Assembly (NCBI GenBank): GCA_007618135.1
Contig: PHFX01000167.1
Span: 1 to 37,611, forward strand
Source of the DNA: Candidatus Brocadia sp. WS118
GTDB lineage: Bacteria; Planctomycetota; Brocadiia; Brocadiales; Brocadiaceae
Length of the DNA stretch: 37,611 nucleotides
Reading direction: 5' to 3'
A program made the position numbers and the translations under genes. Positions 17,022 through 36,124 of this stretch are shown piece by piece (position 1 is the first letter of the stretch; each line of letters starts with the position of its first letter). The notes under the pieces were generated by a model. The model had not been told where the DNA came from, did not search any database, and saw nothing but the letters and a program-made list of their open reading frames with translations.

Positions 17022-19718
17022 ATGGTAATGATTCCAAAAATCAAATTAAGTATTGACGGCAAGACCGTAGAGGTGAATAAAGGGAAAACCGTCTTGCAGG
17101 CGGCCAACTCTATTGGTATTCAAATTCCAACCCTGTGTCATGACCCGCGCCTTGAACCCTTTTCAGCATGCCGTGTCTGCATGGTAGAGGTTGAGAGGGG
17201 CAAGTCGAGCGCACTCATCACTTCATGCAGCACCGAGGCTGCCGATGGAATGGTGATCCGCACGGACTCAGAGAAGGTGTTGAAGACACGAAAGATGGTT
17301 TTGGAGTTAATCCTTTCCGACCATCCCAAGGATTGCATGACCTGTGATAAATGCGGCGCATGCACCTTGCAGGATCTTGCGTATGAGTACCAGGTAAGAG
17401 ACAGCAGATTCTTTGAAAAACCCGACGGTGGTGTTACCGAAGATGAAAACCCTTCCATTCAACAGGATACCAGCAAGTGCATCCTGTGTGGCCGTTGTGT
17501 CCGTATCTGCGCCGAAGTGCAGCAGGATTATGCGATTGATTTTAAGCATCGCGGATTTACGACGGAAACCGGTTTGCCCCTTGGAAAGGCGCGGCGCGAG
17601 ACGACCTGTGTCCTCTGCGGTCAGTGTGTATCTACCTGTCCCGTGGGCTCGTTGGTGGAAAAACAGGCCGTTGGAAAGGCCAGGGACTGGGAATTAAAGC
17701 AGGTAAAAACCACCTGCGCATATTGCGGGGTAGGTTGTACGATGTATTTAAACGTCAAGGGGAATGAGGTTGTTAAGGTGACCTCAAAGACAGGTTCTGT
17801 GCCGAATGACGGGAATTTGTGCGTGAAAGGCCGGTTTGGTTATGACTTTGTCCATCACCCCGACCGTCTGAAGCAACCGCTCATCAAGAAGAATGGAAGA
17901 TTTGAAGAAGCAACATGGGACGAGGCCCTTGATTTTATTGCCGGTAAACTGAATGACATAAAGGCCAGATACGGACCCGATACGATCGGGGTATTCAGTT
18001 CTTCGCGGTGCACCAATGAAGAAAACTATCTGGCAATGAAATTTGCGCGGGCTGCAATTGGCACCAACAACGTAGACCAGTGTGCCCGGACTTGACACGC
18101 ACCCTCCGTCGCCGGTCTGGCGATGTCATTCGGAAGCGGTTCAATGACCAATTCCATCAGTGAAATCAAGGATTGCAAACTCATCTTCCTCATCGGCGGC
18201 AATCCCACAGAGGCGCACCCGATTGTAGGGTTAGAGATGAAAAAGGCGCTCCGCAGGGGATGCACATTTATTGTTGCAGACCCGCGCCAGATCTGGTTTG
18301 CCCAGCATGCTAAGTTATATCTTCCGTTGAAGCCCGGCACGGACAACTGGCTCTTAAATGCAATGGCGCATGTCATCCTTGCGGAAGGTCTTGAAAACAA
18401 GGAATTCATAAAGACACGAACTGAGGGTTTTGAAGAATTAAAAGCGTTTATTAAGGACATCACACCTGAAAAGGCATCGGAATTTACCGGTGTTCCTGCG
18501 GAAGACATTCGTCAGGCCGCCAGGTTATATGCGAAATCAGAGAAGTCGGCTATATATTACACCTTAGGCATTACCGAGCATACCTGCGGAACGGATAATG
18601 TAAGATGCATTGCAAACCTTGCACTGCTAACCGGACACGTTGGGAAATCCAGCACCGGGGTCAACCCCATCCGAGGGCAGAACAATGTCCAGGGTGCAAC
18701 GGACATGTGCCTCCCGGATAAATTACCCGGATATCAGCTGTTTTCAGATGAGAAGGTGGTAGAAAAGTTTGAAAAGAACTGGGGTGTAACCCTGAACAAA
18801 AAACCGGGCAATACCGCGCCAACCATGTTTGAGCGGATGAGTAAAGGGGAATTCAAGGCGTTGTATGTCATCGGTGAAGACCCGATCATGAGTGAGCCGA
18901 ATCAGGATTATACCATCAAAGGACTGAAAAGTCTGGAGCTGCTGGTCGTACAGGACATCTTTATGTCGGAGACCGCTCAGTATGCACATGTCATCCTGCC
19001 GGCAGCAAGTTTTGTTGAAAAGGACGGTACGTTTACCAACACCGAACGCCGCGTACAGCGTGTGCGCAAAGGGATTAATCCGATTGGAAATGCAAAGCCT
19101 GACTGGCAGATTACCAGTGAGCTGTCCACCCGTATGGGTTATAAAATGGAGTATCCTTCTCCCAAAGAAGTCTGGGACGAGATTGCCAGCCTTGTGCCCA
19201 TGCTTGCAGGTATTAATTACGCGCGAATCGAGCGGAACGGCATTCAATGGCCATGCCCTGATGTAAAACATCCCGGCACGAAATTCATGCATGAGGGCAA
19301 ATTCCCGCGTGGTCTTGGCAAGTTTTTTGTATTGCCTTACCGTGCGCCTGCCGAGAGTCCTGACAAGGATTATCCGTTATTGTTAACAACGGGGCGCACC
19401 CTGTATCATTATGGCGCTGGCACGATGACCCGCCGGTCGGCTGGAATCATTCATAAAACAAACGATTGTTTCGTTGAAGTACATCAGACGGATGCCGGGG
19501 AATTGGGCATCTTTGATGGCGAGATGGTAAAGGTTGTTTCGCGGCGGGGTGAGATAACAGCCCGCGCAGAGGTTTCTGACAAGGTGAAACGGGGTGTCAT
19601 CTGGATACCCATGCATTTTGCGGAGGCGGCCGTGAATAAGCTTACCATGGATGCTTACGATAACATCACCCAGACGGCCGAATACAAGGTCTGCGGGGCA
19701 AAGATCGAAAAACTGTAA
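17022..19718 (+). CDS. fdhA: Selenocysteine-containing formate dehydrogenase, alpha subunit
   Basis: A molybdenum or tungsten bis-MGD enzyme that oxidises formate to CO2 (or runs in reverse). The 898 residues include a Sec encoded by the in-frame TGA at 18093-18095 (U358). The context CART-U-HAPSVAGL matches the Sec/His active-site pair of E. coli FdhF. Before it come a 2Fe-2S domain (C39, C50, C53, C69), a NuoG-type His/Cys cluster (H101, C105, C108, C114), two 4Fe-4S ferredoxin motifs (C153-C163, C196-C206) and the Mo-proximal 4Fe-4S cluster (C232, C235, C239, C267). NPIRGQNNVQGATDM carries the substrate-site arginine region, and a molydopterin dinucleotide-binding domain ends the protein. 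GAGGAG lies 10 nt before the ATG. Read naively it splits into two genes (17022-18095 and 18123-19718). No NADH- or quinone-linked partner subunit is adjacent. Confidence 0.93.
18093..18126 (+). other. Sec codon TGA and bacterial SECIS hairpin
   Basis: The TGA is followed after 11 nt by a 7-bp stem (18107-18113 with 18119-18125, one G-U pair) closed by the 5-nt loop GGTCT at 18114-18118. The distance from TGA to loop, 18 nt, and the GGTCT loop are those of the E. coli fdhF SECIS that SelB binds. The sequence between them keeps the open frame. tRNA-Sec, selA and selB are not in the window. Confidence 0.9.
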
Positions 19719-20282: not shown

Positions 20283-21839
20283 ATGATCGATTGGACTAAA
20301 ATTGTAGAATCACACGTTATCAAGACATTCCGGAAAATAAGTTATAAGTGGTGGGGAATTGACATCCAGTTTTATGATGAATACAGCACGTACAAAAACA
20401 ATGGCGTATGTTTACAAAATCCTCTCTGCAATACAATACGGGTAAAACCAGCAGGGGCGAAGCTTTGCTCTCAAACGTATCGGAAAAAGCTTAAAGAACT
20501 CATCAAAAATCAAAGGTCTTTTTTCTACCAATGTTTTGCTGGTCTCCAGGGATTTGCAGTCCCCATCCTGGTGAAAAAAAAATATGTAGGAGCCATGATC
20601 GGGTCTGGTATCAGGGTATTTGAAAACAACGATCAGATGCAAAAGAGGTATAGAGAAGCGCTCATAGAGCTCGGTTTTAATCGCGAGGAGCTAGACCGGT
20701 GTTATGAGAACCTAAAAACAACAGACCTTCACAAAAAGGAATTTATATCCGATTTCATGAAACATATTGCCGAAGATGCCGTTGCTTTTTATGAACTCTT
20801 ACAGGAAAAGGAGGAGATTGCAAAAAAACAAGCATTTCTCCTGGACAGTATTTATAAAGAAAAGTATAAAGGAATCATCGGAACCAGTCCGGCAATGAAA
20901 AGGGTGTTTGATACCTTAGAACTCATCGAACGGAGTGAAAGCCCCGTCTTAATCGAAGGGGAAAGCGGGACGGGAAAAGAGCTTGTAGCAGCAGCCATAC
21001 ATTATAACAGTCCGCGCAAAGACAAAATATTTGTTATCCAGAATTGTTCTGCCTTTAGTGATACCCTGCTCAATTCTGAATTGTTTGGACACGAAAAAGG
21101 CGCTTTTACCGGCGCCTATGCAGAGAAGAAAGGTTTGTTTGAAGTTGCAGATAAGGGGACATTGTTCCTGGATGAGATTGGAGACATGAATATAGAAATC
21201 CAGGCAAGGCTCTTGCGTGTACTGGAAGATGGGTCATTTTACCGTGTGGGTGGTACAGAGCAAAAAAAGACAAATGTCAGGATTATTGCTGCAACAAATA
21301 AAGAATTAAAAGAAGTAGTTGAACGGCGTCTCTTCAGGAAAGACCTCTTGTACCGGATAAACACGATCCACGTAACACTGCCACCACTCAGAGAGAGAAA
21401 AGAGGATATCTCACTTCTGGTCAATCACTTTCTGGACTATTACGCCATCTCCTGCCATGGAGGCAGGAGGGAGATGGATAAAGAGGTAAGAGAACTTTTG
21501 CTGTCCTATCAATGGCCGGGCAATGTCCGTGAACTGAAAAACCTGATAGAACGTCTAGTCCTTTTGTCCGGTACTGGTAAAACCATTGAAGTCCGTCACA
21601 TCCCCGGTGAAATCCTGGCGGGCATGTATCCTGGACTCCATGCCCATAACCCTACAAAGCCAGTAAAACTTACCTATGCGATCAAGGGGCTTGAGAAAAA
21701 TATGGTCTGTGAGGCCTTAGTGCGAACGAAATGGAACAAGACTGTTGCATCAAAAGAACTTGGCATCAGCCGCGCAAGCCTGAATAACAAAATCGCGGAA
21801 TTCAATATCCAGCCCGACCCACATCTATGGGGGGCGTAA
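20283..21839 (+). CDS. PocR-domain sigma-54-dependent transcriptional activator
   Basis: The 518-residue product is a bacterial enhancer-binding protein. Residues about 5-165 form a PocR-type sensory domain (paired cysteines in CLQNPLCNT and KLCSQTY, then YQCFAGLQGFAVPI), a domain known to bind small hydrocarbon-type ligands in other proteins. The AAA+ domain (about 195-430) has Walker A GESGTGKE, an intact GAFTGA loop that contacts sigma-54, Walker B TLFLDEIGD and the arginine-finger region LLYRIN. A Fis-type helix-turn-helix (KTVASKELGISRASLNNKI) ends it. The target genes are not known; no sigma-54 promoter was recognised in the window. Confidence 0.92.
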   Translation: MIDWTKIVESHVIKTFRKISYKWWGIDIQFYDEYSTYKNNGVCLQNPLCNTIRVKPAGAKLCSQTYRKKLKELIKNQRSFFYQCFAGLQGFAVPILVKKKYVGAMIGSGIRVFENNDQMQKRYREALIELGFNREELDRCYENLKTTDLHKKEFISDFMKHIAEDAVAFYELLQEKEEIAKKQAFLLDSIYKEKYKGIIGTSPAMKRVFDTLELIERSESPVLIEGESGTGKELVAAAIHYNSPRKDKIFVIQNCSAFSDTLLNSELFGHEKGAFTGAYAEKKGLFEVADKGTLFLDEIGDMNIEIQARLLRVLEDGSFYRVGGTEQKKTNVRIIAATNKELKEVVERRLFRKDLLYRINTIHVTLPPLRERKEDISLLVNHFLDYYAISCHGGRREMDKEVRELLLSYQWPGNVRELKNLIERLVLLSGTGKTIEVRHIPGEILAGMYPGLHAHNPTKPVKLTYAIKGLEKNMVCEALVRTKWNKTVASKELGISRASLNNKIAEFNIQPDPHLWGA

Positions 21840-22343: not shown

Positions 22344-23117
22344 GTGCCGAATATGAACCATATCTTTCAGACAGGTAATCCAAAGATAGAAGTTATCGAG
22401 GTCGTTGGTGGATTAATTGGTAACGGGGCATTGGAGATTCAAACCCAGTTGTACAGGCGTTTAGACAAAGATAGATGTTATCAGATCCTCGACCTCGAAC
22501 ACGTAAAGCAGATTGACGGGCTCGGGATTAGGGTACTTGAAAATTTTCTTTCCCGCGGTTTACAGATTCGGCTCATCAATGTAAATCCGGCGGTAAAATC
22601 GGTCATAAAGATGGCAAAAAAGGAGTCTTTCTTCCAGATAATGTATAACGAAAAAGACCGAGACAAGGCCGCTTCTTTATTTGAAAAAGACGTTTTAGAA
22701 AAGAGGCTTATACCTGGAGATGGTTTCCTTAAAAAAAGACATCATACCCGGGTTACTACCTCTTTCCCCGCCGAGTTTAAATTCCTGGGGAATCACGGAA
22801 TAACATCAGGTAAGGCAAATATTCTGAATCTAAGCGAAGGTGGCGTCCTGGCAGGTCGCATCGTTGTCATAAAGGCAAATACTGATGAAATGCTTCATTG
22901 CGGGGGAATGATTGAAAAAGAGGTACATGATTTGAAGTTTAAACTTAACGGCGATTCGACATCAATAACCACCCAGGGAAAATGTGTCAGGGAGTTTATG
23001 GACGGGGAATCGCTCTCTGCAGGGATATGCTTTAAGGATATAAGCCGCCATCAGAGAGAAAGTATTCGATCTTTTGTGGATGCCCATACAGAATATTCCA
23101 GAGAGACAGGACGGTAG
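22344..23117 (+). CDS. STAS-PilZ two-domain protein (probable c-di-GMP receptor)
   Basis: The 257-residue product joins an N-terminal STAS fold (about 15-110, ILDLEHVKQIDGLGIRVLENFL) to a C-terminal PilZ domain (about 130-250). The PilZ signature is complete: R132-HHT-R136 (RxxxR) and N162-LSEGG (D/NxSxxG), the residues that hold c-di-GMP. In the STAS domain the position usually carrying the phosphorylated serine (DSSG) is DGLG, so control by phosphorylation is unlikely. The start is GTG: AAGGAAGG lies 8 nt ahead, whereas the ATG at 22353 is too far. It precedes a c-di-GMP riboswitch and an exopolysaccharide cluster. Confidence 0.85.
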   Translation: MPNMNHIFQTGNPKIEVIEVVGGLIGNGALEIQTQLYRRLDKDRCYQILDLEHVKQIDGLGIRVLENFLSRGLQIRLINVNPAVKSVIKMAKKESFFQIMYNEKDRDKAASLFEKDVLEKRLIPGDGFLKKRHHTRVTTSFPAEFKFLGNHGITSGKANILNLSEGGVLAGRIVVIKANTDEMLHCGGMIEKEVHDLKFKLNGDSTSITTQGKCVREFMDGESLSAGICFKDISRHQRESIRSFVDAHTEYSRETGR

Positions 23118-23390: not shown

Positions 23391-26300
23391 ATGAAAAGAC
23401 ATGACCACAAAGACATTTCGCGATTTTTTCCTCAGGGTTTTTATCATAACCTGATATATCCTACCCGTTTCAAACGTCTCCTTTTTTTCCTGCTCCTTGA
23501 TTTTGTAATCATTGTGTTTTCGCTCTATCTCTCTTTTTTCATGCGTTTCGAGTTTACCATTCCTTCTGAATATAGAGTGCTCGTATTGGATGTAATCCCA
23601 CTTTTTCTTTTGATAAAGCTAACTTCATTTTATTGCTTCAGGGTCTATAAAATCACCTGGAGATATGTGGGCATCAACGATCTTGTAAATATTGCCGTTG
23701 CACAAACAGCATCAACATCTGTCCTGATGATGCTTATTTTGATTCCCATGCCCTCATGGTTTCATGCTGTTATTCCGGGTTTCTTCTTTTTTGATGTGCA
23801 TATCAAAGGATTCCCAAGAAGCGTCTTTTTCATAGACGGTATGGTTTCCTTTGTTTTATTCTGTGGATCAAGGTTCTCGAAAAGGCTATTTTTGGAAATT
23901 ATCCATAAAGGGGCAACCAATCATGCCGGCAAGAAAACCCTTGTTATCGGAGCGGGGAATACAGGGGAAATGATCATGAGGGATATGAAAAGACAAGGGT
24001 ACGGAGACTATTATCCTGTGGGTTTTCTCGATGATAATGAAAATAAGGTCGGGACAAGGATGCATGGATTGAACGTGTTCGGCACAACGGACAAACTCAG
24101 TGATGTCGTCTTCAAATATGGAATTGAAGCGATCATTATTGCCATTCCGTCCCTCGATTATAAGGTTCTCAGGAGGATGTACACGGCAGCGAAAGGTCTG
24201 AAGATAGACACAATAAAGATTGTTCCACGGATATATGATCTTCGCAACCCCTCGGTAAATATAAAGAATCTTGAAGATATACAGGCAGGAGATCTTCTGG
24301 GAAGGCAGACAGTGGAAATTGATTGTCAGGAAATCGGCACATTTTTGAAACACAAGGTAATCCTCATAACAGGCGCAGGAGGGTCTATCGGGTCAGAATT
24401 AACGATACAAGTGTGTTCTTTTCATCCCGAAAAGATCGTTCTCTTTGATATCGATGAAACTGAACTGCACCAGGTAAAGCACAAATTAGAGAGGTTGTTT
24501 CCCAATTTATTTGACAGGATGTTGATAAATTCGAGGATACAGGAGAAGGTAATTTTAATAACCGGGGATATCAGGGATGTTGACGTAGTGAATGAAGTTT
24601 TTGAAAAATTTAAACCCCAGATTGTATTTCATGCGGCTGCTTATAAACACGTTTCCATCATGGAAATTAATTGTAAAGAGGCTGTAAAGGTGAACATGTT
24701 TGGGACTTATAATCTTGCAAGGGCCTCAGCAAATCATCACGTAGAAAAGTTTATCCTGATTTCTACGGACAAAGCAGTCAAACCTACGAGCATTATGGGC
24801 GCTACAAAAAGAATGGCTGAATATATTTGCACGGCATTTAATGAAAATTCAAAAACAAATTTTCTGGCAGTACGATTTGGGAATGTCCTGGGCAGTCGCG
24901 GAAGTGTTGTGCCCATATTTCTTGAGCAAATGAAACATGGTGGCCCTATTACGATAACCCACAAGGATATTCAAAGGTTTTTTATGACCATCCCGGAGGC
25001 AGTATCCCTGGTGCTACAGGCATCGGTTCTTGGAAAAGGAAGGGATATCCTTGTTCTTGATATGGGGGAGCCGGTCAAGATTTTGAGCCTGGCAGAAGAA
25101 TTGATAAAAATCCATGGGTTACAACCGTATCAGGACATAGATATACAATTTATCGGTTTAAGACCGGGAGAGAAACTCTTTGAAGAGACACTCTCGGCAG
25201 AGGAAGGCACAACTGCAAGCAAACACAAAAAAATATTTATTGCAAAGCAAGGAAAAACATATTCAAAAGATGAAATTGAAATGATCCTAAAGGGGTTTGA
25301 AAAGCTGTTGAAGGTGCTTCCGATAATGGATAATTATGAAATAATCAGGGATGTGTTCAGGAAATACGTAAAAACTTATGAAAGAAGGGGACATAACAGG
25401 CAAAACCAGCAGTTAGTAGGTATAGAGTCAGAATTGCCGCAGAACGACGAGGCTCATTTTCAACACAACAAAATGCAATTTGAGAAGCTTCTGGACGAAT
25501 TGCCGGCAATAGAAGATTATGAAATAATCAGAGATACATTGAGAAATTACATACAAAGTTTGGAGGAGAGGAGGCAGAGTCAAATAAGCCAGACATCAGA
25601 AAAAGCAGCCTCATCGCTTCAAAGAATAGAGCCTTCGCGCAGATACTTACAGTTGGTATTTGGCAAAAACCGATACGCTCTTTCATTCTTAGATAAAACC
25701 ATAGAAGATGAATTTAAGGAACACGTTTTCCTTTCCCATCCTTCGCAAAACCACGATTGTTTATTTACCGTTGGATATCAGGGCAATGAGAATACGAATG
25801 GAAATGGGAAGGCGTTTTATTTTAAAGGAGAGAAATGGCATTACTATGGTAATGGAACTGGGGAGATTAAGGTGTTTTTCCCGAGGAATCTGGCGTTTTC
25901 TAATACCATGCGCATTCTTGCTTTATTGTACAATGAATTTTACCGATGTGAAGATAATAGTTTTATATTGCATGCTGCAGGGTTACGTAAGTATGGAAAA
26001 GGATTTGTCTTTGCCGGTGAATCAGGGGCGGGAAAAACGATCATTTCGAAATTGTCATTGCCAGAGGCAAAGGTGCTTTCGGATGAATCAGTCATCGTAT
26101 CCAAAGATCATGAAGGATATTGGATTTCTCAAGGTCCGATAAAGACAGAGATAACGGAACCGAATGATACAAGAGTCAGTCTCTGCGCAATTTTTTTTCT
26201 GGTGAAGGATCATGTTAACGCGGTAAGGAGGTTACACAGATCAGAGACAGTGCAAAAACTCATGGATAATATATTTTACGTAAATCTTTCGGGAAGGCAG

Positions 26301-26435
26301 ACACTGGTAGATACACTGGAAAAAAGGTTAAAATTTATTCATGACGCTTACAATCATGTGGCGGTTTACGAATTACGATTCAAAAGCGACAATAGTTTTT
26401 GGCAGGAAATTGAACGTGTTATTTTGCACAGTTAA
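23391..26435 (+). CDS. Membrane NDP-sugar 4,6-dehydratase fused to HprK-like kinase domain
   Basis: The 1014-residue product begins with four membrane segments (about 25-175) and a nucleotide-binding region (LVIGAGNTGE, about 185), as in WbpM/PglF-type proteins. A CapD-type dehydratase follows (about 325-610): TGAGGSIGSE, then STDKAVKPTSIMGATKR, where the catalytic Tyr is Met as is normal in this subfamily, then RFGNVLGSRGSV. These make UDP-4-keto-6-deoxy sugars. Two copies of a 38-residue unit follow (about 634 and 694: FEKLL-x-x-LP-x-x-x-(D/N)YEIIRD). The last 270 residues resemble HprK-type kinases: a PEP-carboxykinase-like P-loop FAGESGAGKT near 874, then LSDESVIV. HprK-like domains on sugar dehydratases are not a layout I know. 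The gene is led by a c-di-GMP riboswitch. Confidence 0.88.
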   Translation: MKRHDHKDISRFFPQGFYHNLIYPTRFKRLLFFLLLDFVIIVFSLYLSFFMRFEFTIPSEYRVLVLDVIPLFLLIKLTSFYCFRVYKITWRYVGINDLVNIAVAQTASTSVLMMLILIPMPSWFHAVIPGFFFFDVHIKGFPRSVFFIDGMVSFVLFCGSRFSKRLFLEIIHKGATNHAGKKTLVIGAGNTGEMIMRDMKRQGYGDYYPVGFLDDNENKVGTRMHGLNVFGTTDKLSDVVFKYGIEAIIIAIPSLDYKVLRRMYTAAKGLKIDTIKIVPRIYDLRNPSVNIKNLEDIQAGDLLGRQTVEIDCQEIGTFLKHKVILITGAGGSIGSELTIQVCSFHPEKIVLFDIDETELHQVKHKLERLFPNLFDRMLINSRIQEKVILITGDIRDVDVVNEVFEKFKPQIVFHAAAYKHVSIMEINCKEAVKVNMFGTYNLARASANHHVEKFILISTDKAVKPTSIMGATKRMAEYICTAFNENSKTNFLAVRFGNVLGSRGSVVPIFLEQMKHGGPITITHKDIQRFFMTIPEAVSLVLQASVLGKGRDILVLDMGEPVKILSLAEELIKIHGLQPYQDIDIQFIGLRPGEKLFEETLSAEEGTTASKHKKIFIAKQGKTYSKDEIEMILKGFEKLLKVLPIMDNYEIIRDVFRKYVKTYERRGHNRQNQQLVGIESELPQNDEAHFQHNKMQFEKLLDELPAIEDYEIIRDTLRNYIQSLEERRQSQISQTSEKAASSLQRIEPSRRYLQLVFGKNRYALSFLDKTIEDEFKEHVFLSHPSQNHDCLFTVGYQGNENTNGNGKAFYFKGEKWHYYGNGTGEIKVFFPRNLAFSNTMRILALLYNEFYRCEDNSFILHAAGLRKYGKGFVFAGESGAGKTIISKLSLPEAKVLSDESVIVSKDHEGYWISQGPIKTEITEPNDTRVSLCAIFFLVKDHVNAVRRLHRSETVQKLMDNIFYVNLSGRQTLVDTLEKRLKFIHDAYNHVAVYELRFKSDNSFWQEIERVILHS

Positions 26436-27164: not shown

Positions 27165-28184
27165 ATGGATAATATATCATATTACAGCAATGCCGCAACC
27201 AAGAGGGCCGTGAGTCGTGTCCGTTATCCGTGTCCGTTGCCTACATCAAATCCCTCCGTTTACGGGGGGACACAGGGGGGTAGGGTGAGGAATCATGGTG
27301 GTAATAAGTACTCCCCGCTCCTGGTGGGTGGGGGTGAACTGTTACATAAAAAGAAATTAAGGGCAATTTTCAGTTTCGTTATTTTTCTTTGTATGGGTTT
27401 TGGAAATCTTCTTGCCAAAGACCTGTCTGATAAGGAATACATTATCGGTCCTGAGGACGTCCTTGAGATTCAGGTGTGGGACAACGAGGATTTGGGCTGT
27501 GTCACTGAGGTCTCTTTAGAAGGAGCCTTTACCTTTCCCCTTATCGGGAGGGTTCGTGCGGGTGGTCTTTCCATTACAGGGCTTGAACGTCTTATCGAAG
27601 AGAAATTGGCTGACGGTTACCTCATTTCACCCCATGTAAATGTTAGTGTAAAAGAATATAAAAGCCAGAAAGTTTCTATTCTTGGGGCGGTGAAAAATCC
27701 GGGAAGTTATGCCTTAAAAAGGAAAACGGATATCCTGGAAGTAATATCCCAGGCTGGTGGCTTTACCGACAAGGCAGGGCAGATTATTACCATTGTACGG
27801 CCTAAGCCCACTCAGCAAAATGGACATATAACCCATTCTGGAAAAGAGAAAGAAAATGCAATTATTACGCTTGATTTAAGCGATTTCAAGGCCAGCAGTG
27901 CCTATGATAATTTTCCTGTAATGAACGGGGATTCCATTTACGTTAATCTGGCTCCGCGGATATTTGTCACAGGAGAGGTTAAAAAAGCAGGGGAATTCCC
28001 CTGGGAAAAGGGACTGACTGTCCGGCAGGCCATATCGCTTGCAGGGGGGCATACGGACAAGGCATCTCCCCGGCGCGTAATCATAAGCCGGATGGAAGAT
28101 GGGAAAGAGAAGGAATTAAAGCCCAAAATGGACGACCTGGTAATACCTGGTGATATTATTAAGATTCCCGGGCGTTATTTTTAA
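27165..28184 (+). CDS. Wza-type polysaccharide export protein (SLBB/Poly_export)
   Basis: The protein forms or lines the outer-membrane exit for exopolysaccharide. The Poly_export segment (YIIGPEDVLEIQVWDNEDL, about 88-170) is followed by two SLBB-type segments (VSILGAVKNPGSY..., IFVTGEVKKAGEF...). The first 60 residues are odd: residues 29-40 (NPSVYGGTQGG) are the translation of a family A repeat (27246-27285), and a normal signal peptide (KKKLRAIFSFVIFLCMGFGNLLA) begins only near residue 62. No ATG lies just before the signal peptide; a GTG near 27320 is one possibility. Either the repeat displaced the old start, or the ATG at 27165 gives an extended leader. No lipobox cysteine is visible. 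Confidence 0.82.
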   Translation: MDNISYYSNAATKRAVSRVRYPCPLPTSNPSVYGGTQGGRVRNHGGNKYSPLLVGGGELLHKKKLRAIFSFVIFLCMGFGNLLAKDLSDKEYIIGPEDVLEIQVWDNEDLGCVTEVSLEGAFTFPLIGRVRAGGLSITGLERLIEEKLADGYLISPHVNVSVKEYKSQKVSILGAVKNPGSYALKRKTDILEVISQAGGFTDKAGQIITIVRPKPTQQNGHITHSGKEKENAIITLDLSDFKASSAYDNFPVMNGDSIYVNLAPRIFVTGEVKKAGEFPWEKGLTVRQAISLAGGHTDKASPRRVIISRMEDGKEKELKPKMDDLVIPGDIIKIPGRYF

Positions 28185-28351: not shown

Positions 28352-28429
28352 GTAGCGCCGATCCCTTCCCCGATCACAGTCGAGGACAAGCGTGGTCGGC
28401 CAACGGCGGGGGATAAACCCCCGCACTAC
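28352..28429. repeat. GTAGCGC-type inverted pair without outer arms
   Basis: GTAGCGCCGATCCC ... CCCGCACTAC, with CGAGGACAAGCGTGGTCGGC inside: the same core as in the elements at 31013-31177, 32346-32487 and 36149-36254, but without the GTAAC outer arms. It ends just before the kinase gene. Confidence 0.7.
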
Positions 28430-28477
28430 GAGATCGGTTTGAAATTCCTGAACATGAACTTAGGGAGGAATGAATTC

Positions 28478-30997
28478 GTGAATCAACACGTGGGAACTGG
28501 ACTTGTGCCTGACCGTACACCATTTTCGCAAGAGGTACATTTAGCCGATTATTTCAATATCGTAAGAAAACGGAAATGGACGGTTATTGCAACCTTTTTT
28601 GCCATAGTATGCATTGTTACCGTTTGGTCGTTTTTTACCATACCGGTCTATAAGGCAACGACAAAAATCATGATTGAAAGTCAGTCATCCTTCATTAATA
28701 AAATAGCGGATGCGACCTATGTGGACCCAAAAGATGAGGCGTATTACCAGACGCAATACCGTTTGTTAATGAGCAGGAGTCTGGCAAAAAAAGTAATTGA
28801 AGACCTGGACCTCTGGAAGAATTTTAGGAGTGATCTTGATAAAAACCCTGACGCTTCCCCGTCTCCGGAAGCGGAGATACACCCTCGTATGGTAAATTGG
28901 TATCTCTCAAATCTACAGATTGCACCCATACGGACAACGAAACTTGTTGATATCAGTTTTTTAAGCCCTTCTCCCGAAATGTCCGCCCGCATGGCCAATG
29001 CACATGCACATGCCTTTATTGCAAGAAGTACAGAACTCCAGCACAAGGTATCAGAGCAGGCGCTGGAGTGGCTAAAGAAACAGGTTCGTGGACAGAAAAC
29101 CATGGTGGGAACATCTCAGCGGTCAGTGTATGAATATAAATTTGAACAATTAGGATCATTTTCTGTTGACGATGAAGGTGTTTTTTCAATACCAGAGATC
29201 AAGGAAAACCCCGTTATCAAAGACCTCCGGGGTAAATTGGCTGAGCTCAAGGCCAGGAAATCTGAGATGGTAACGAAATACGGCCCAAAGCACCCGAAGA
29301 TGATTGAGATTAATTCCAGTATCCAAAAACTGGAACAGGGGATTACTGATGAGGTCCAGGCGATCAGGAAGGTAATTAAGGCTGAATTGGATAAAATCAT
29401 TGCCTTTGAAAAAAGGGTGCGGCAAACCCAGGGGCATCAGACGGAGGATACCGATCCCTCTACGCAAAAGGCTATTACCTATGATATGGTGCGTCTGGAG
29501 GCGGAAAGCGATCAGGAGATTTACGATGTTTTGCTCAAGCATGCGAAAGAGATTGGCCTTACGGGGAGTATGGAGAAAAACAATATCCGTATTGTAGATG
29601 AGGCTGAATTGCCTTTGTTTCCAGTCAAACCCCGGATTTTTATGAACATCCTGTTGTCGGTAATTATTGGCGCCGTATTTGGAACAGGGCTTGCCTTTTT
29701 TCTTGAGTATATGGACAGAAAAATAAGGACGTCAGAGGATGTGCTGCGACGGCTGGGAATGCCGGTGATTGGAGTCATGCCATATGATAAATGCTTAAAA
29801 ACAAACAACATACTTTCTCTCGCACAGGATGACTCTTATCTAAAACAAGGGAGACGCAAGGGCGGGTATGCGCAATATTATGGTTATGATCTTTCGAACA
29901 GCCTGATTGCCAAACTGCCGTTTACACAATCGTCGCTGTCCGGTCAGTCATTTATGGTAGAAAGCGCAATCGCCGGTGAGGGAAAAACTACCGTTCTTGC
30001 GAAAATGGCGCTTAGTCTGTCACAGAGGGGATTCCGGGTAATTATGGTAGATGCGGATCTGCAGCAGCCATCGTTGCATGACATGTTCGGATTCAATAAC
30101 GGGAAAGGGAGCGGTTTGTTAAACGGTATGAATAGCATTCTCTCCCGGGAAATACGGGAAGGTACTTTAGATACCTGGAGCATAGACGATCTCTTCTGCC
30201 TTATTGCCCTGAAGAAACAGAGCGGAAGGCTTGTGGTGCGTTGTGATGATCAGACCATAACTGCCGTCTTTGAACACGGACGCCTCCTTCATTTACAAAA
30301 CAGGGATAATTCCTTTGCCAACCGTTTGGGGACTATGCTTCTCCGGGGAGGTTTTATTACGGAAGATCAATTAAACGATGCCCTGGAGAGAAACCAGCGG
30401 ACAGGACTGCCTCTGGGGTACATTCTTATCAATTCCGGATATATTAACAGGAATCAGTTGCAGGGTCCTTTAAAACTCCAGAAGGAGGAATATCTCCAAA
30501 AATTATTTAGCTGGAAGCATGGTGCCTTTACTTTTGAACCGGGCGGTGTGGAAACCTACGAAGACAAGAGGATCTATTTTGAAGACGACTGCACACCGGT
30601 AATCGACCGGTTGGGGCGAATGTCAGGCAGCCGCTTCATTGAGGGTGAAATGCTTTCTTATGTTAAGCCCGTTAACGGATCAAATTTATCCATCCTGCCG
30701 GCCGGAGAAGGAAAGGGAAACCTTAGTCATCCTGCCTGTTTTGCCCTTATGTCAAAGTTTCTAACCCTGCTGAAACAGCGTTTTGACGTAGTGCTTGTGG
30801 ACGCCCCGCCGGTGCTGGATGGTGGAAACAGCGCGACTCCGCTCCTTTCACTCGTAGATGGCGTAATCTTTGTAATTAAGGCCGGGCAGGTATCTGTTGA
30901 CCTTATCAACAAGACCGTTGAAACCATAAAAGAGTCAAAGGCAAATATTGTTGGCGCAGTGCTTAATCAGGCAAGGATAGAAAAAAGCTATTATTGA
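28478..30997 (+). CDS. Wzz/BY-kinase (Wzc-like) with DUF4388/MshEN-like insertion
   Basis: A polysaccharide co-polymerase and tyrosine autokinase that controls chain length. Two membrane spans bracket a periplasmic coiled-coil Wzz domain (about 35-410). The kinase has Walker A AGEGKTT near 500, Walker A' VIMVDADLQQPS near 521 and Walker B VVLVDAPP near 771. In E. coli Wzc A' and B lie about 80 residues apart; here they are about 250 apart. The extra piece (about 560-730) reads GTLDTWSIDDLFCLIALKKQ (DUF4388/PATAN opening), then tandem RLG-TMLLRGGFI and LGYILINSGYI motifs like the c-di-GMP-binding MshEN domain, then LFSWKHGAFTFEPG. The tyrosine tail is short (KSYY). I start at GTG 28478 because GGGAGG lies 9 nt ahead; the frame is open to 28439. 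Confidence 0.9.
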   Translation: MNQHVGTGLVPDRTPFSQEVHLADYFNIVRKRKWTVIATFFAIVCIVTVWSFFTIPVYKATTKIMIESQSSFINKIADATYVDPKDEAYYQTQYRLLMSRSLAKKVIEDLDLWKNFRSDLDKNPDASPSPEAEIHPRMVNWYLSNLQIAPIRTTKLVDISFLSPSPEMSARMANAHAHAFIARSTELQHKVSEQALEWLKKQVRGQKTMVGTSQRSVYEYKFEQLGSFSVDDEGVFSIPEIKENPVIKDLRGKLAELKARKSEMVTKYGPKHPKMIEINSSIQKLEQGITDEVQAIRKVIKAELDKIIAFEKRVRQTQGHQTEDTDPSTQKAITYDMVRLEAESDQEIYDVLLKHAKEIGLTGSMEKNNIRIVDEAELPLFPVKPRIFMNILLSVIIGAVFGTGLAFFLEYMDRKIRTSEDVLRRLGMPVIGVMPYDKCLKTNNILSLAQDDSYLKQGRRKGGYAQYYGYDLSNSLIAKLPFTQSSLSGQSFMVESAIAGEGKTTVLAKMALSLSQRGFRVIMVDADLQQPSLHDMFGFNNGKGSGLLNGMNSILSREIREGTLDTWSIDDLFCLIALKKQSGRLVVRCDDQTITAVFEHGRLLHLQNRDNSFANRLGTMLLRGGFITEDQLNDALERNQRTGLPLGYILINSGYINRNQLQGPLKLQKEEYLQKLFSWKHGAFTFEPGGVETYEDKRIYFEDDCTPVIDRLGRMSGSRFIEGEMLSYVKPVNGSNLSILPAGEGKGNLSHPACFALMSKFLTLLKQRFDVVLVDAPPVLDGGNSATPLLSLVDGVIFVIKAGQVSVDLINKTVETIKESKANIVGAVLNQARIEKSYY

Positions 30998-31012
30998 ATT
31001 GTAAGGAATTTC

Positions 31013-31177
31013 GTAACACTTTAGTATTTTGAAAAAGGTAGCGCCGATCCCTTCCCCGATCACAGTCGAGGACAAGCGTGGTCGGCTTGTGCGGGGGATA
31101 AACCACCCGCGCTACGTTTTCCGTTTCATGTGAATTACTTATAAATGTACGGATTTTTCAAAAAGCTAAAGTATTAC
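31013..31177. repeat. Composite MITE-like element, type C, copy 1
   Basis: The outer arms are GTAACACTTTAGTATTTTGA / AAAAGCTAAAGTATTAC; the inner GTAGCGCC...GGCGCGGG-type pair is at 31038-31115. The outer arms are those of type B; the core is different. Confidence 0.8.
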
Positions 31178-31280
31178 AGGAATTTCAAATTTTTGGCTGT
31201 GTGGGTATGTGATGGGGTGTATTCCCAATTATTTGCAAAAAAATGAATGAACGGTATGGCTGAGTACATCTTATAAAATT

Positions 31281-32186: not shown

Positions 32187-32345
32187 TTATGTATTGGCGT
32201 TTAAATATGCTGTTAGAAAGGCAAAGATAGATGGTACGCTGACACAGTATTAAGCTTAAAGTGTTAATTTGTATTAGTTCACCACAGAGACACAGAGGCA
32301 CGGAGAATGATTTTAGAAATTGAGATAGGCCTTATTGTCAATTAT

Positions 32346-32487
32346 GTAACAATTTAGCTTTTTGAAAAACCCGTACCTTTATGTGTAATCAATAAAAAAC
32401 GGAATACGTAGTGCGGGTGGTTTATCCCCCGCCCAATGCCGACCACAAGGGATCGGCGCTACATTTTTCAAAAAGCTAATTTGTTAC
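32346..32487. repeat. Composite MITE-like element, type C, copy 2
   Basis: The outer arms are GTAACAATTTAGCTTTTTGA / AAAAAGCTAATTTGTTAC; the shortened core GTAGTGCGGGTGG ... GATCGGCGCTAC is at 32408-32462. The next 300 bp (32488-32775) hold only low-complexity dispersed phrases (CACAGAGACACAGAGG, CTCTGAACTCTG) and no gene. Confidence 0.8.
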
Positions 32488-32776
32488 TAAATTATAATGT
32501 CCCTGTTTTGAAAGATGGAATTAAGAGACTCGTCCTCTGAATTTTCTCTGTGTCTTCATGTCTCTGTGGTGAATAGAATGTCTCACGCAGAGACGCAAAG
32601 ATCGCAAAGAGAAAAGAGATGTTTTGGATTTTGTAAATTGGAATTTGTTTATTATTTGAAATTTGTAATTTGAGTATTGGTATTTAACTATTTATTAGTG
32701 TTTCTGTGGTGAATCCTGTGGTTAGCGAAGTCGAACCATCTAAACTCTGAACGCTGGACTCTGAACTCTAAAACAC

Positions 32777-33175: not shown

Positions 33176-34181
33176 ATGAATAAAGTCTTAGTTACCGGCG
33201 CTGCAGGTTTCATTGGTTTTCACTTATCTAAAAGATTGATTGCACTTGGAAAGGATGTTATTGGATTAGACAACCTCAATGATTACTACGATGTTAACCT
33301 TAAACTTGCCAGACTAAAACAGATCGAAGGTTACAAAATTCAGTTTATAAAACTCGACATTGCAAATCGGGAGGAAATCGTGAGGCTATTTCACGACAAT
33401 AAATTTGATATTGTGGTGAACCTTGCAGCCCAGGCAGGGGTAAGGTATTCTTTGAAAAATCCGCATGTTTATATAGAAAGCAACATTAATGGATTTGTGA
33501 ACGTTCTCGAAGGATGCGCAGCATGCCGTGAAACATCTTGTCTATGCCTCCTCAAGCTCTGTGTATGGGGCAAATACCAGGATGCCCTTTTCTGTCCATC
33601 ATAATGTTGATCATCCGGTATCTCTTTATGCTGCTACCAAGAAGGCGAATGAGCTTATGGCTCATACCTATTCGAGTTTGTATAAAATTCCCTGCACAGG
33701 GCTCAGATTTTTTACCGTTTACGGTCCGTGGGGTCGTCCGGATATGGCGTTATTCATTTTTACAAAGGCCATATGGGAAGGTAAACCCATTGATGTATTT
33801 AATTATGGCAAGATGCAAAGGGATTTTACCTATATTGATGATATTATCGAAGGCATGGTCAGGGTAATGGATAAAATTCCAGAACCAAATCCAAAATGGA
33901 GTGGTGATAATCCAGATACTGCGACGAGCTATGCGCCATATAAGCTGTATAATATAGGGAATAACAACCCGGTTGAGCTTATGCATTTTATTGAAGTACT
34001 GGAATCTTGTCTTGGTAAAAAGTCAAAGAAAAATCTCTTGCCGATTCAAGAGGGCGATGTACCTGCGACCTATGCAGATGTTGAAGATTTGACAAGAGAT
34101 GTGGGTTTTAAACCGTCAACTCCAATTGAAGAAGGCATTAAGAAGTTTGTGGGATGGTACAGGGAATATCACAAAGTGTAA
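33176..34181 (+). pseudogene. UDP-glucuronate 4-epimerase-like gene, frameshifted
   Basis: A short-chain dehydrogenase-type NAD-dependent epimerase of about 335 residues in two frames. The first frame has GAAGFIGFHLSKRL (NAD site) and NDYYDVNLKLARL, typical of UDP-glucuronate epimerases (CapI-like). The second has [18 protein letters not shown] (catalytic Y-x3-K), [17 protein letters not shown] and a normal C-terminus. The frames join near 33515-33530 (EGCA|HAVKH), where one extra base or a two-base loss breaks the gene. Apart from that it is complete. The enzyme would make UDP-galacturonate for the exopolysaccharide. A sequencing error is possible. Confidence 0.85.
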
Positions 34182-34246: not shown

Positions 34247-36124
34247 GTGCCGTGAAGTTAAGGAATACCGAAGTTCTTTAACATGCTGCAATAAAGATGA
34301 CAGACCAATGGGGGTGCTACCCATTGCGAAGTATCGGCAACGCCGTACAGGCGGGGTTGTCAAACCGCTCTACGCTGCAAAAGCTGTAAAGCCGATGTAG
34401 TGAACGGATAGAGAAAAGGTGGGGATAACTCATCAGGTGTGACTTTAAGAGATGAATGCAAATGAATCGCTGAAGAAGTAACGAAAACGCAGAAGTTGTC
34501 GGGCAAAATCGCATTGTGCTAAGGATGCAGAAACAAGCATAGCGGAGACCTGTTAACTGGCTATGTGCCCACCGTTATACAGGCGACATGACTTAAAGTT
34601 TGGCTTTAGTGCGGAACACGGGATATCCGTTTCAGGGTAACGGCTGCAAAAGGCGTGAAACGGAAGTCGGACTAAGCCGTAAGAGTGAAGATATTCCGCG
34701 AAAGCGGAAAGGAGCGAAGGGCTTAGGTTATTCAGTGCAATGTTCACTACAACAACCTTGCAAAAAAAAAGCGGGGGAAGATTAACAAATGAATATCCAC
34801 GTATGCAAAACAGTACCAATTGAGTACAGCCAGGTGGTAAACGCATACCGCAAGGTAAAGAAAGGCGGAAAGGCAGCAGGGATAGACAACGAAAGCTGGG
34901 AGAAGTTTGACCAGAATGTCGAGGGCAATCTCTATGTAATTTGGAATCGGATGTCCTCAGGAAGCTACCATCCCCAAGCTGTACGAGAGGTAGAAATACC
35001 GAAGAGGGACGGCAAAATGCGTAAATTAGGCATTCCAACACTACGCGACAGGATAGCACAGCAAGTAGTGAAGGACTACATGGAAAAGAGAATAGATAGA
35101 CTTTTCCACGAGAACTCCTATGGGTACAGACCATTGAAGAACGCACACCAAGCCATAGAACAAGTCAGACAGAACTGCTACAAGCAGGACTGGGTGATAG
35201 ATATGGACATAAGCAAGTTCTTTGATGAAATAGACCATGAGCTGATGATAAAAGCGGTAGAGCATGTCAGAGAGGAGAAATGGGTGAAGATGTACGTGGA
35301 GAGATGGTTAGGGATGGCGGTGCAAAAGCAAGACGGTACATTGCAACCACGAGCAGGAAAAGGGACGCGTGCCAGGGCGGCGTAATAAGCCCTTTACTTG
35401 CAAACCTCTATCTGCATTTCACGCTTGATGTGTGGCTATCCAAGCACTACCCGCAGGTGAACTTTGTAAGATACGCAGATGACGTCGTGGTACACTGTAC
35501 AAGCAAAGCAGAGGCGGAGAAAGTGCTGGAAGCGATAAGGCAGAGACTGGCAGAAGTAAAGCTGCAAATCAAAGAGGAAAAGACACGCATAGCGTATTGC
35601 AAGGATTACCGACGTAAAGCAAGGCATGAAGTGGTCAAATTTGAATTTCTGGGATTCAGCTATCAGCCGAGAGCAAGAAAGAGTAACAGAGACGGTAAGA
35701 GTTTTACAGCATTTGCAGCCGAGATAAGCCAGTCCAACCAGAAGCGAATACGGAAAGTAATCAGAGAAGTAAAACTCTGGGGTAACACGCAGGTGGAAAT
35801 CCAGGAAATTGCAAAACTCCTCAACGCCAAACTTCGAGGATGGATAGCGTATTATGGTAAGTACAGCATAAGAAGCCTAAGAAACACCTTGATGATGATA
35901 GACGGGAGACTCATCAAGTGGCTCAGGAAAAAGCACAAGAGTGGCTATAGAAAATCAGTGGAAAAACTCAATTCGATAAAACAAGCCTTCCCGGCGTTGT
36001 TTTATCACTGGAAAATGGGATACTGTTGAAGCGTATCAAGAATAACACGAGCCGTATGACGGGAGACTGTCACGTACGGTTCTGTGAGAGGCTTGGGGGT
36101 GAAACTCCCCCTTGCCTACTCGGC
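34247..36124 (+). mobile_element. Group II intron
   Basis: The 5' end begins GTGCCGTGAAG (GUGYG-like). A reverse transcriptase-maturase lies in domain IV. Domain V is a textbook 34-nt hairpin at 36049-36082 (GAGCCGTATGAC..., AGC triad, GAGA tetraloop). Domain VI (36087-36121) pairs GAGAGGC with GCCT-A-CTC, leaving a bulged A at 36118 as branch point. The exact 3' end is unsure: it lies a few bases after domain VI, where the usual terminal AY is not seen. The intron sits between the broken epimerase and wecB and abuts a type C repeat that lacks its left arm. Confidence 0.85.
34789..36029 (+). pseudogene. ltrA: Group II intron reverse transcriptase/maturase, frameshifted
   Basis: Together the two frames give a protein of about 413 residues. 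The first frame carries the RT fingers (KKGGKAAGIDNESW, REVEIPKRDGKMRKLGIPTLRDRIAQ, ENSYGYRP, WVIDMDISKFFDEIDH). The second has QGGVISPLLANLYLH, the catalytic VRYADD and a maturase domain ending FPALFYHW. They join near 35373, where one base is missing inside the expected GTPxQGG motif (ACG CG- TGC CAG). There is no HNH endonuclease domain. As written, the product would lack YADD and the intron could not move by itself. A sequencing error is possible; an AAAAGGG just upstream is a poor slippery site. Confidence 0.85.

Follow-up and report, generated by a model that had tools for sequence, protein, structure and literature searches.

A PATAN/DUF4388 domain with a built-in MshEN-type bundle, nested in the P-loop domain of a diverged, putatively c-di-GMP-responsive Wzc-type co-polymerase of anammox Brocadiales

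The window, i.e. the whole stretch of DNA analysed here, comprises 37,611 nt of contig PHFX01000167.1 from Candidatus Brocadia sp. WS118. Its forward strand holds an open frame of 852 aa, which lies in the following gene context:

22344-23117, forward strand: protein with STAS and PilZ domains, same locus (Pfam; STAS 2.3e-9, PilZ 1.7e-6)
23391-26435, forward strand: sugar-nucleotide enzyme of the Polysacc_synt_2 family, same locus (Pfam, E 1.6e-111)
27165-28184, forward strand: outer-membrane polysaccharide export protein (OPX, Wza-like), the next gene upstream (Pfam Poly_export and SLBB)
28439-30997, forward strand: Wzc-like polysaccharide co-polymerase (PCP-2a) with a diverged BY-kinase domain and a PATAN-MshEN insert (Pfam, NCBIfam)

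The last of these and its insert-bearing relatives are referred to below as fusion kinases; almost every locus compared has an OPX homologue close to its fusion kinase. A sigma-54 activator with a PocR sensory domain (20283-21839) is located beside the STAS-PilZ protein, upstream of the polysaccharide genes, and homologues of both also occur near the fusion kinases of loci L081 and L092. Three further genes of the window are divided between frames: a molybdopterin oxidoreductase (17022-19718) with an iron-sulphur region of the NADH-dehydrogenase-G type, in the adjacent frames 17022-18095 and 18123-19718; a NAD-dependent sugar epimerase (33176-34181), in two overlapping frames of 142 and 217 aa that probably reflect a frameshift; and a group II intron reverse transcriptase/maturase (34789-36029), in two overlapping frames and probably broken.

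The TTG start listed for the kinase gene falls within an 89-nt repeat, copies of which, 82% identical, flank the gene at 28352-28440 and 31038-31126, the upstream copy overlapping the TTG; the ABC-ATPase gene is likewise surrounded by related copies and inverted pairs, located at 31007-31178 / 32345-32493. GTG 28478 with its probable Shine-Dalgarno element appears the likelier start, and would yield a protein of 839 aa. Within the 852-aa frame, the following features were assigned:

28462-28469, forward strand: probable Shine-Dalgarno element AGGGAGGA ahead of GTG 28478 (inferred by direct reading of the sequence)
28532-28807, forward strand: Wzz domain, aa 32-123 (Pfam PF02706, E 2.5e-10)
29489-29701, forward strand: GNVR domain, aa 351-421 (Pfam PF13807, E 1.5e-14)
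29975-29989, forward strand: Walker A, GEGKT, aa 513-517 (G-E-G-K invariant in 16 relatives)
30041-30064, forward strand: Walker A', IMVDADLQ, with both Asp retained and the Arg of DxDxR replaced by Gln (alignment with relatives)
30134-30643, forward strand: inserted PATAN/DUF4388 domain, aa ~566-735, ~170 aa (A'-B spacing, Pfam, alignment to solved kinases)
30323-30394, forward strand: MshEN motif I, RLGTMLLRGGFITEDQLNDALERN, aa 629-652, with Gln24 replaced by Asn (NF053729, motif scan)
30395-30409, forward strand: 5-residue spacer QRTGL, aa 653-657 (motif scan)
30410-30481, forward strand: MshEN motif II, PLGYILINSGYINRNQLQGPLKLQ, aa 658-681, with Arg1 replaced by Pro (motif scan)
30482-30553, forward strand: second half of DUF4388, KEEYLQKLFSWKHGAFTFEPGGVE (the Pfam match extends to profile position 98; conserved in relatives)
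30800-30811, forward strand: Walker B, D-A-P-P, aa 788-791, with Ala for the usual kinase Ser/Thr (alignment with relatives)
30989-30994, forward strand: C-terminal Tyr-Tyr, a short Y tail (sequence, alignment with relatives)

Wzz, GNVR and a cytoplasmic P-loop domain are thus found on one chain with an OPX gene adjoining, and by this domain order the protein is classed as a PCP-2a co-polymerase. Its P-loop domain is matched in split form by the Pfam families CbiA/ParA/AAA_31; the best full-length NCBIfam matches are to EpsF, Wzc and polysaccharide tyrosine autokinases, all below cutoff, leaving NF053729 as the sole NCBIfam model above cutoff.

The first-pass annotation had lodged a module of about 165 extra residues between Walker A' and Walker B, and both its place and its size are borne out: the A'-to-B spacing is 242 residues in the window protein and in nearly all of its relatives (242-251 over the whole set), whereas ordinary BY-kinases of Brocadiales have 72 almost without exception, and the inserted segment measures ~170 residues, with boundaries accurate to ±8 aa. 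The box drawn earlier (30161-30700) has a start that falls inside the insert and an end that overruns ~60 nt into the kinase. In alignments to kinases of solved structure, residues 141-147 of CapA1B1 span profile positions 100 to 274, and residues 97-103 of VpsO positions 103 to 277, so that ~170 residues stand in for a BY-kinase loop of ~5 residues, past the A' helix and ahead of the next strand. All 18 aligned fusion relatives carry the insert at one identical point. The A'-B region tolerates growth, as two insert-free Brocadiales kinases (L022, L067) have ~16 extra residues in the same stretch. AlphaFold modelling of the whole cytoplasmic domain from five sequences gave a pLDDT of 40 and a pTM of 0.24, and the model was discarded; as whole-domain models were this poor, the position that the insert takes on the kinase was deduced from sequence alignment.

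The insert is one composite, a PATAN/DUF4388 fold whose built-in helical insertion is an MshEN-type bundle. DUF4388 (Pfam PF14332) was matched at aa 574-705 with an E-value of 2.5e-19 (70 bits against a gathering score of 25) and in 16 of 16 relatives, and NF053729, a c-di-GMP motif model related to MshE, at aa 629-676 with 54 bits (cutoff 38) and again in all 16 relatives (E<=0.001). This agrees with the two tandem MshEN-type motifs proposed earlier, whose 24+5+24 arrangement lies at aa 629-681 and did not arise once when the insert was shuffled 20,000 times; of the DUF4388/MshEN module as first described, both parts are present, but they do not stand side by side, the bundle being a built-in insertion of the PATAN domain. 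Database searches with the insert returned PDB sequence matches to PilF (2e-10) and MshE (9e-5). AlphaFold modelling of the insert alone gave a usable model for the bundle only (local pLDDT about 65-82), which superimposes on c-di-GMP-bound MshE (5htl) with 0.9 Å over 53 columns at 40% identity, and on PilF GSPII-B-c-di-GMP complexes with 0.7 Å. Foldseek searches with the bundle had a probability of 1.00 with weak E-values (about 0.05-0.3), the latter because the remainder of the insert model is poor.

Of the 392 Planctomycetota genomes sampled, 206 encode DUF4388, and in many of these proteins the order is strand, bundle, LFxWxxGxFEF, often towards the N-terminus of a long chain. The PATAN domain with an alpha-helical insertion, for which Makarova et al. 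(2006) are cited, likewise has strand-rich halves around a helical bundle and a typical LFSWKxGxFxFE segment. While the domain thus often lies near the protein start in the PATAN/DUF4388 hosts seen here, in the fusion kinase it interrupts the ATPase fold, and this kinase is the sole DUF4388 protein of its own genome. DUF4388 proteins with the same built-in bundle are encoded at Planctomycetota loci L093-L122; those of L105 and L094 retain the Gln that closes each motif, and would seem to bind c-di-GMP better than the kinase does.

The 53-aa MshEN segment is the best conserved stretch of the fusion protein, with a mean column identity of 0.79, compared with at most 0.66 in any 53-aa segment that does not overlap it and an average of 0.47. 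All 18 sequences share both Gly3, Arg1 of motif I, and Leu17 and Gln24 of motif II, and 17 of them have Leu17 of motif I. Only two of the twelve key contact positions depart consistently, namely the terminal Gln of motif I (Asn in 17 of 18, Cys in one, Gln in none), where the Asn pointed out earlier for the first half, as a change that may alter binding, proves to be fixed across the family, and the initial Arg of motif II (Pro in 18 of 18); the last helix of motif II also holds an unusual, invariant Pro. With these substitutions, the strict MshEN consensus RLG...Q matches neither motif, Gln being replaced by Asn in motif I and Arg by Pro in motif II, but the relaxed motif of Wang et al., which permits both P and N at the departing positions (PMC5013675), is found in tandem in the window protein and most relatives, with L028 and L019 failing in motif I. 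PilF GSPII-B Q190E, altered at the position of the motif I Asn, still binds c-di-GMP (Kd 950 nM), PilF GSPII-C, which carries Pro exactly where motif II departs, binds at about 500 nM (PMC11731258), and changes of Arg9, Asp12 or Gln32 in MshE shift the affinity by at most about fivefold (PMC5013675); PilF GSPII-A, a near-consensus domain, does not bind c-di-GMP (PMC12002112). Judged from sequence and local model, the insert is likely to bind c-di-GMP, which would be its likeliest ligand. As Gln never occurs at the end of motif I in this family, the Asn may be adjusted to a different binding strength or ligand. With 20 GGDEF matches in the genome and a PilZ protein encoded in the locus, the signal is available.

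The kinase motifs, described as intact in the first-pass annotation, are preserved in part. Walker A reads GEGK[ST] in all 18 fusion kinases, and both Asp residues of A' and the Walker B Asp are invariant. Lost in 18 of 18 are the A' Arg, replaced by Gln, Tyr, His or Leu in a D-x-D that is kept, the ExxRxxR octamer motif ahead of Walker A, and the PPNPSE(L/M) segment, and in 16 of 18 the Walker B Ser/Thr is replaced by Ala or Gly, L020 (DTPP) and L030 (DSPP) being the exceptions; insert-free Brocadiales kinases retain all of these, few exceptions aside. The C-terminal tail has at least one Tyr in every fusion kinase, often just 2-3, several in some, and one in L013. ExxRxxR forms half of the octamer interface, a contact area reported to be essential for trans-autophosphorylation and polymer synthesis (PMC3795738). 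Given the loss of ExxRxxR, A' Arg and PPNPSEL, ordinary trans-autophosphorylation cannot be assumed, and has probably been weakened or replaced, and because two defining motifs (A' DxDxR and ExxRxxR) are absent we do not class the protein as a proven BY-kinase. The persistence of GEGK[ST], D-x-D and Tyr residues suggests that selection probably still acts on ATP use, and ATP binding probably remains.

The fusion was found in 19 copies in 14 of 62 Brocadiales genomes, including its own and some single-contig assemblies. Its match in Candidatus Brocadia sapporoensis has 66% identity over the whole 320-aa kinase-plus-insert query, as obtained in a contig scan with exact window peptides, which detects close kin only. 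No fusion outside Brocadiales was found among 392 genomes drawn across Planctomycetota, nor did viral contigs yield one when queried with the fusion, with the insert and with ordinary kinases; plasmids yielded only partial relatives, none spanning 80% of the query. That two genes had been joined through a missing stop or a chimeric contig, the possibility for which the first-pass annotation had asked for a check, deserves practically no credence: the identical junction recurs in these 14 genomes, single-contig assemblies among them, as well as in Ca. Brocadia sapporoensis, and an assembly or annotation artefact was ruled out. In a tree of the kinase domain with the insert removed, the 18 fusion rows, one of them from the window, all fall on the same side of a single branch with a support of 100/100 and a long stem (1.31 changes per site), so that a single origin of the fusion is the simplest reading of the sequences. 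The clade that gained the insert is the same one that shed the standard contacts for kinase-ring assembly; as this correlation lies within one clade, gain and loss count as a single event. One Brocadiales genome (G044) has four fusion kinase copies (L014, L027, L030, L031), of which L031 has a degenerate motif I (RLGTTLLRADLITEEQLKDALERS).

Compared with known systems, the fusion kinases share Walker A, the A' and B Asp, the C-terminal Tyr and an adjoining OPX gene with the PCP-2 BY-kinases Wzc, VpsO and CapAB (3la6, 6u1q, 4jlv, 7nhr), and with the Wzc type also the Wzz-GNVR-P-loop order, but differ from them by the 170-aa A'-B insert and by the loss of ExxRxxR, A' Arg, PPNPSEL and mostly the Walker B Ser/Thr. 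With the MshEN receptors of MshE (5htl) and PilF GSPII-B (8pdk) they have in common the pair of 24-residue motifs, the 5-residue spacer, nearly all contact residues and, by the local model of the insert, the four-helix bundle; they differ in the Asn ending motif I and the Pro starting motif II, and whereas MshEN of MshE and PilF stands at a chain end, here it lies inside PATAN inside a P-loop domain. E. coli NfrB, a c-di-GMP-controlled glycosyltransferase whose NCBIfam model matches the insert weakly, likewise ties MshEN to exopolysaccharide output, but is a synthase with a C-terminal MshEN, not a co-polymerase with a nested one. The BY pseudokinases EcpK and HfsB have also lost BY-kinase residues within a PCP-2 system; EcpK, however, is devoid of Walker motifs and of a Tyr tail, with no comparable insert described, whereas the fusion kinases keep GEGK[ST], D-x-D and Tyr residues. 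In a literature search covering mostly open-access papers, no paper was found that describes a PATAN-MshEN domain nested in a Wzc-type kinase or links DUF4388 with tyrosine kinases, the only paper found to name DUF4388 being concerned with nitrite reductase; nor do the titles and abstract openings of papers naming c-di-GMP, Wzc and tyrosine autokinase report such a domain.

On balance, with slightly more confidence than doubt, we read the fusion protein as a c-di-GMP-responsive, diverged Wzc-type co-polymerase of anammox Brocadiales. The bundle would bind c-di-GMP, as its sequence, motif spacing and local model suggest; binding would then shift the ATP-binding core and the contacts with neighbouring subunits, since the insert is joined to the nucleotide fold at either end; and this may set the assembly state of the periplasmic Wzz/GNVR part, as knowledge of Wzc and the gene order suggest, with exopolysaccharide polymerisation and export, together with the adjacent OPX protein, as the predicted outcome. 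The insert may gate ATPase or autophosphorylation, as the first-pass annotation suggested, and it may have taken over part of bringing subunits together. A further step, which we advance only tentatively, is that the fusion kinases are a Wzc-type class that has discarded the octamer contacts, with assembly of the export machine driven by c-di-GMP on the nested PATAN-MshEN domain; if true, a second-messenger switch would replace, or be added to, the phosphotyrosine cycle.

These readings overlap with the alternatives considered here, and the weights given to them are not meant to sum to one. The P-loop domain could have ceased to phosphorylate and act as a pseudokinase-like scaffold, ligand-driven changes of the insert alone guiding co-polymerase assembly. 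The loss of the octamer motif, the A' Arg and the Walker B Ser/Thr points this way, as does the precedent of EcpK and HfsB, phosphorylation-independent PCP-2 proteins proposed to work without a ligand (PMC12004946), but EcpK has no Walker motif or Tyr tail at all, and the fusion kinases retain GEGK[ST], D-x-D and Tyr, which leaves this mode somewhat improbable. It is slightly favoured over its opposite, an active c-di-GMP-gated tyrosine kinase in which the insert switches autophosphorylation of the Tyr tail and so drives the octamer assembly/disassembly cycle. Such a kinase would account for the invariant Walker A lysine, A' Asp pair and Walker B Asp, and for C-terminal Tyr in all fusion kinases, several in some; we consider it unlikely, as ExxRxxR, reportedly essential for trans-autophosphorylation (PMC3795738), is gone in 18 of 18, together with the A' Arg and PPNPSEL that ordinary Brocadiales kinases keep, and the tails are short (YY in the window protein, one Tyr in L013).

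Doubtful to a similar degree is an insert that has ceased to bind a nucleotide and instead offers a partner, e.g. the OPX protein, a glycosyltransferase or the PilZ protein, a surface on which to dock. The motifs are degenerate in many Planctomycetota PATAN-bundle proteins, motif I Gln24 is found in no member of the kinase family, and the PATAN-CheY response regulator PixE is reported to contact the pilus motor PilB1, all of which would fit docking; against it, few positions in the protein are as well conserved as those that contact the ligand, and docking alone does not obviously demand the two RLG/PLG turns and Leu triads.

Little is understood about the sensing of cellular signals by BY-kinase co-polymerases, and direct action of c-di-GMP, the main biofilm signal, on them is not shown in the papers found. 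A receptor domain within the nucleotide fold would join the two on one chain, and the loss of the canonical octamer contacts in the fusion clade provides a natural experiment on the purpose of those contacts. Exopolysaccharide holds together the granules in which anammox bacteria live and are put to use, so that an effect of c-di-GMP on export would matter for granule formation, and the nested domain suggests direct c-di-GMP control of anammox slime.
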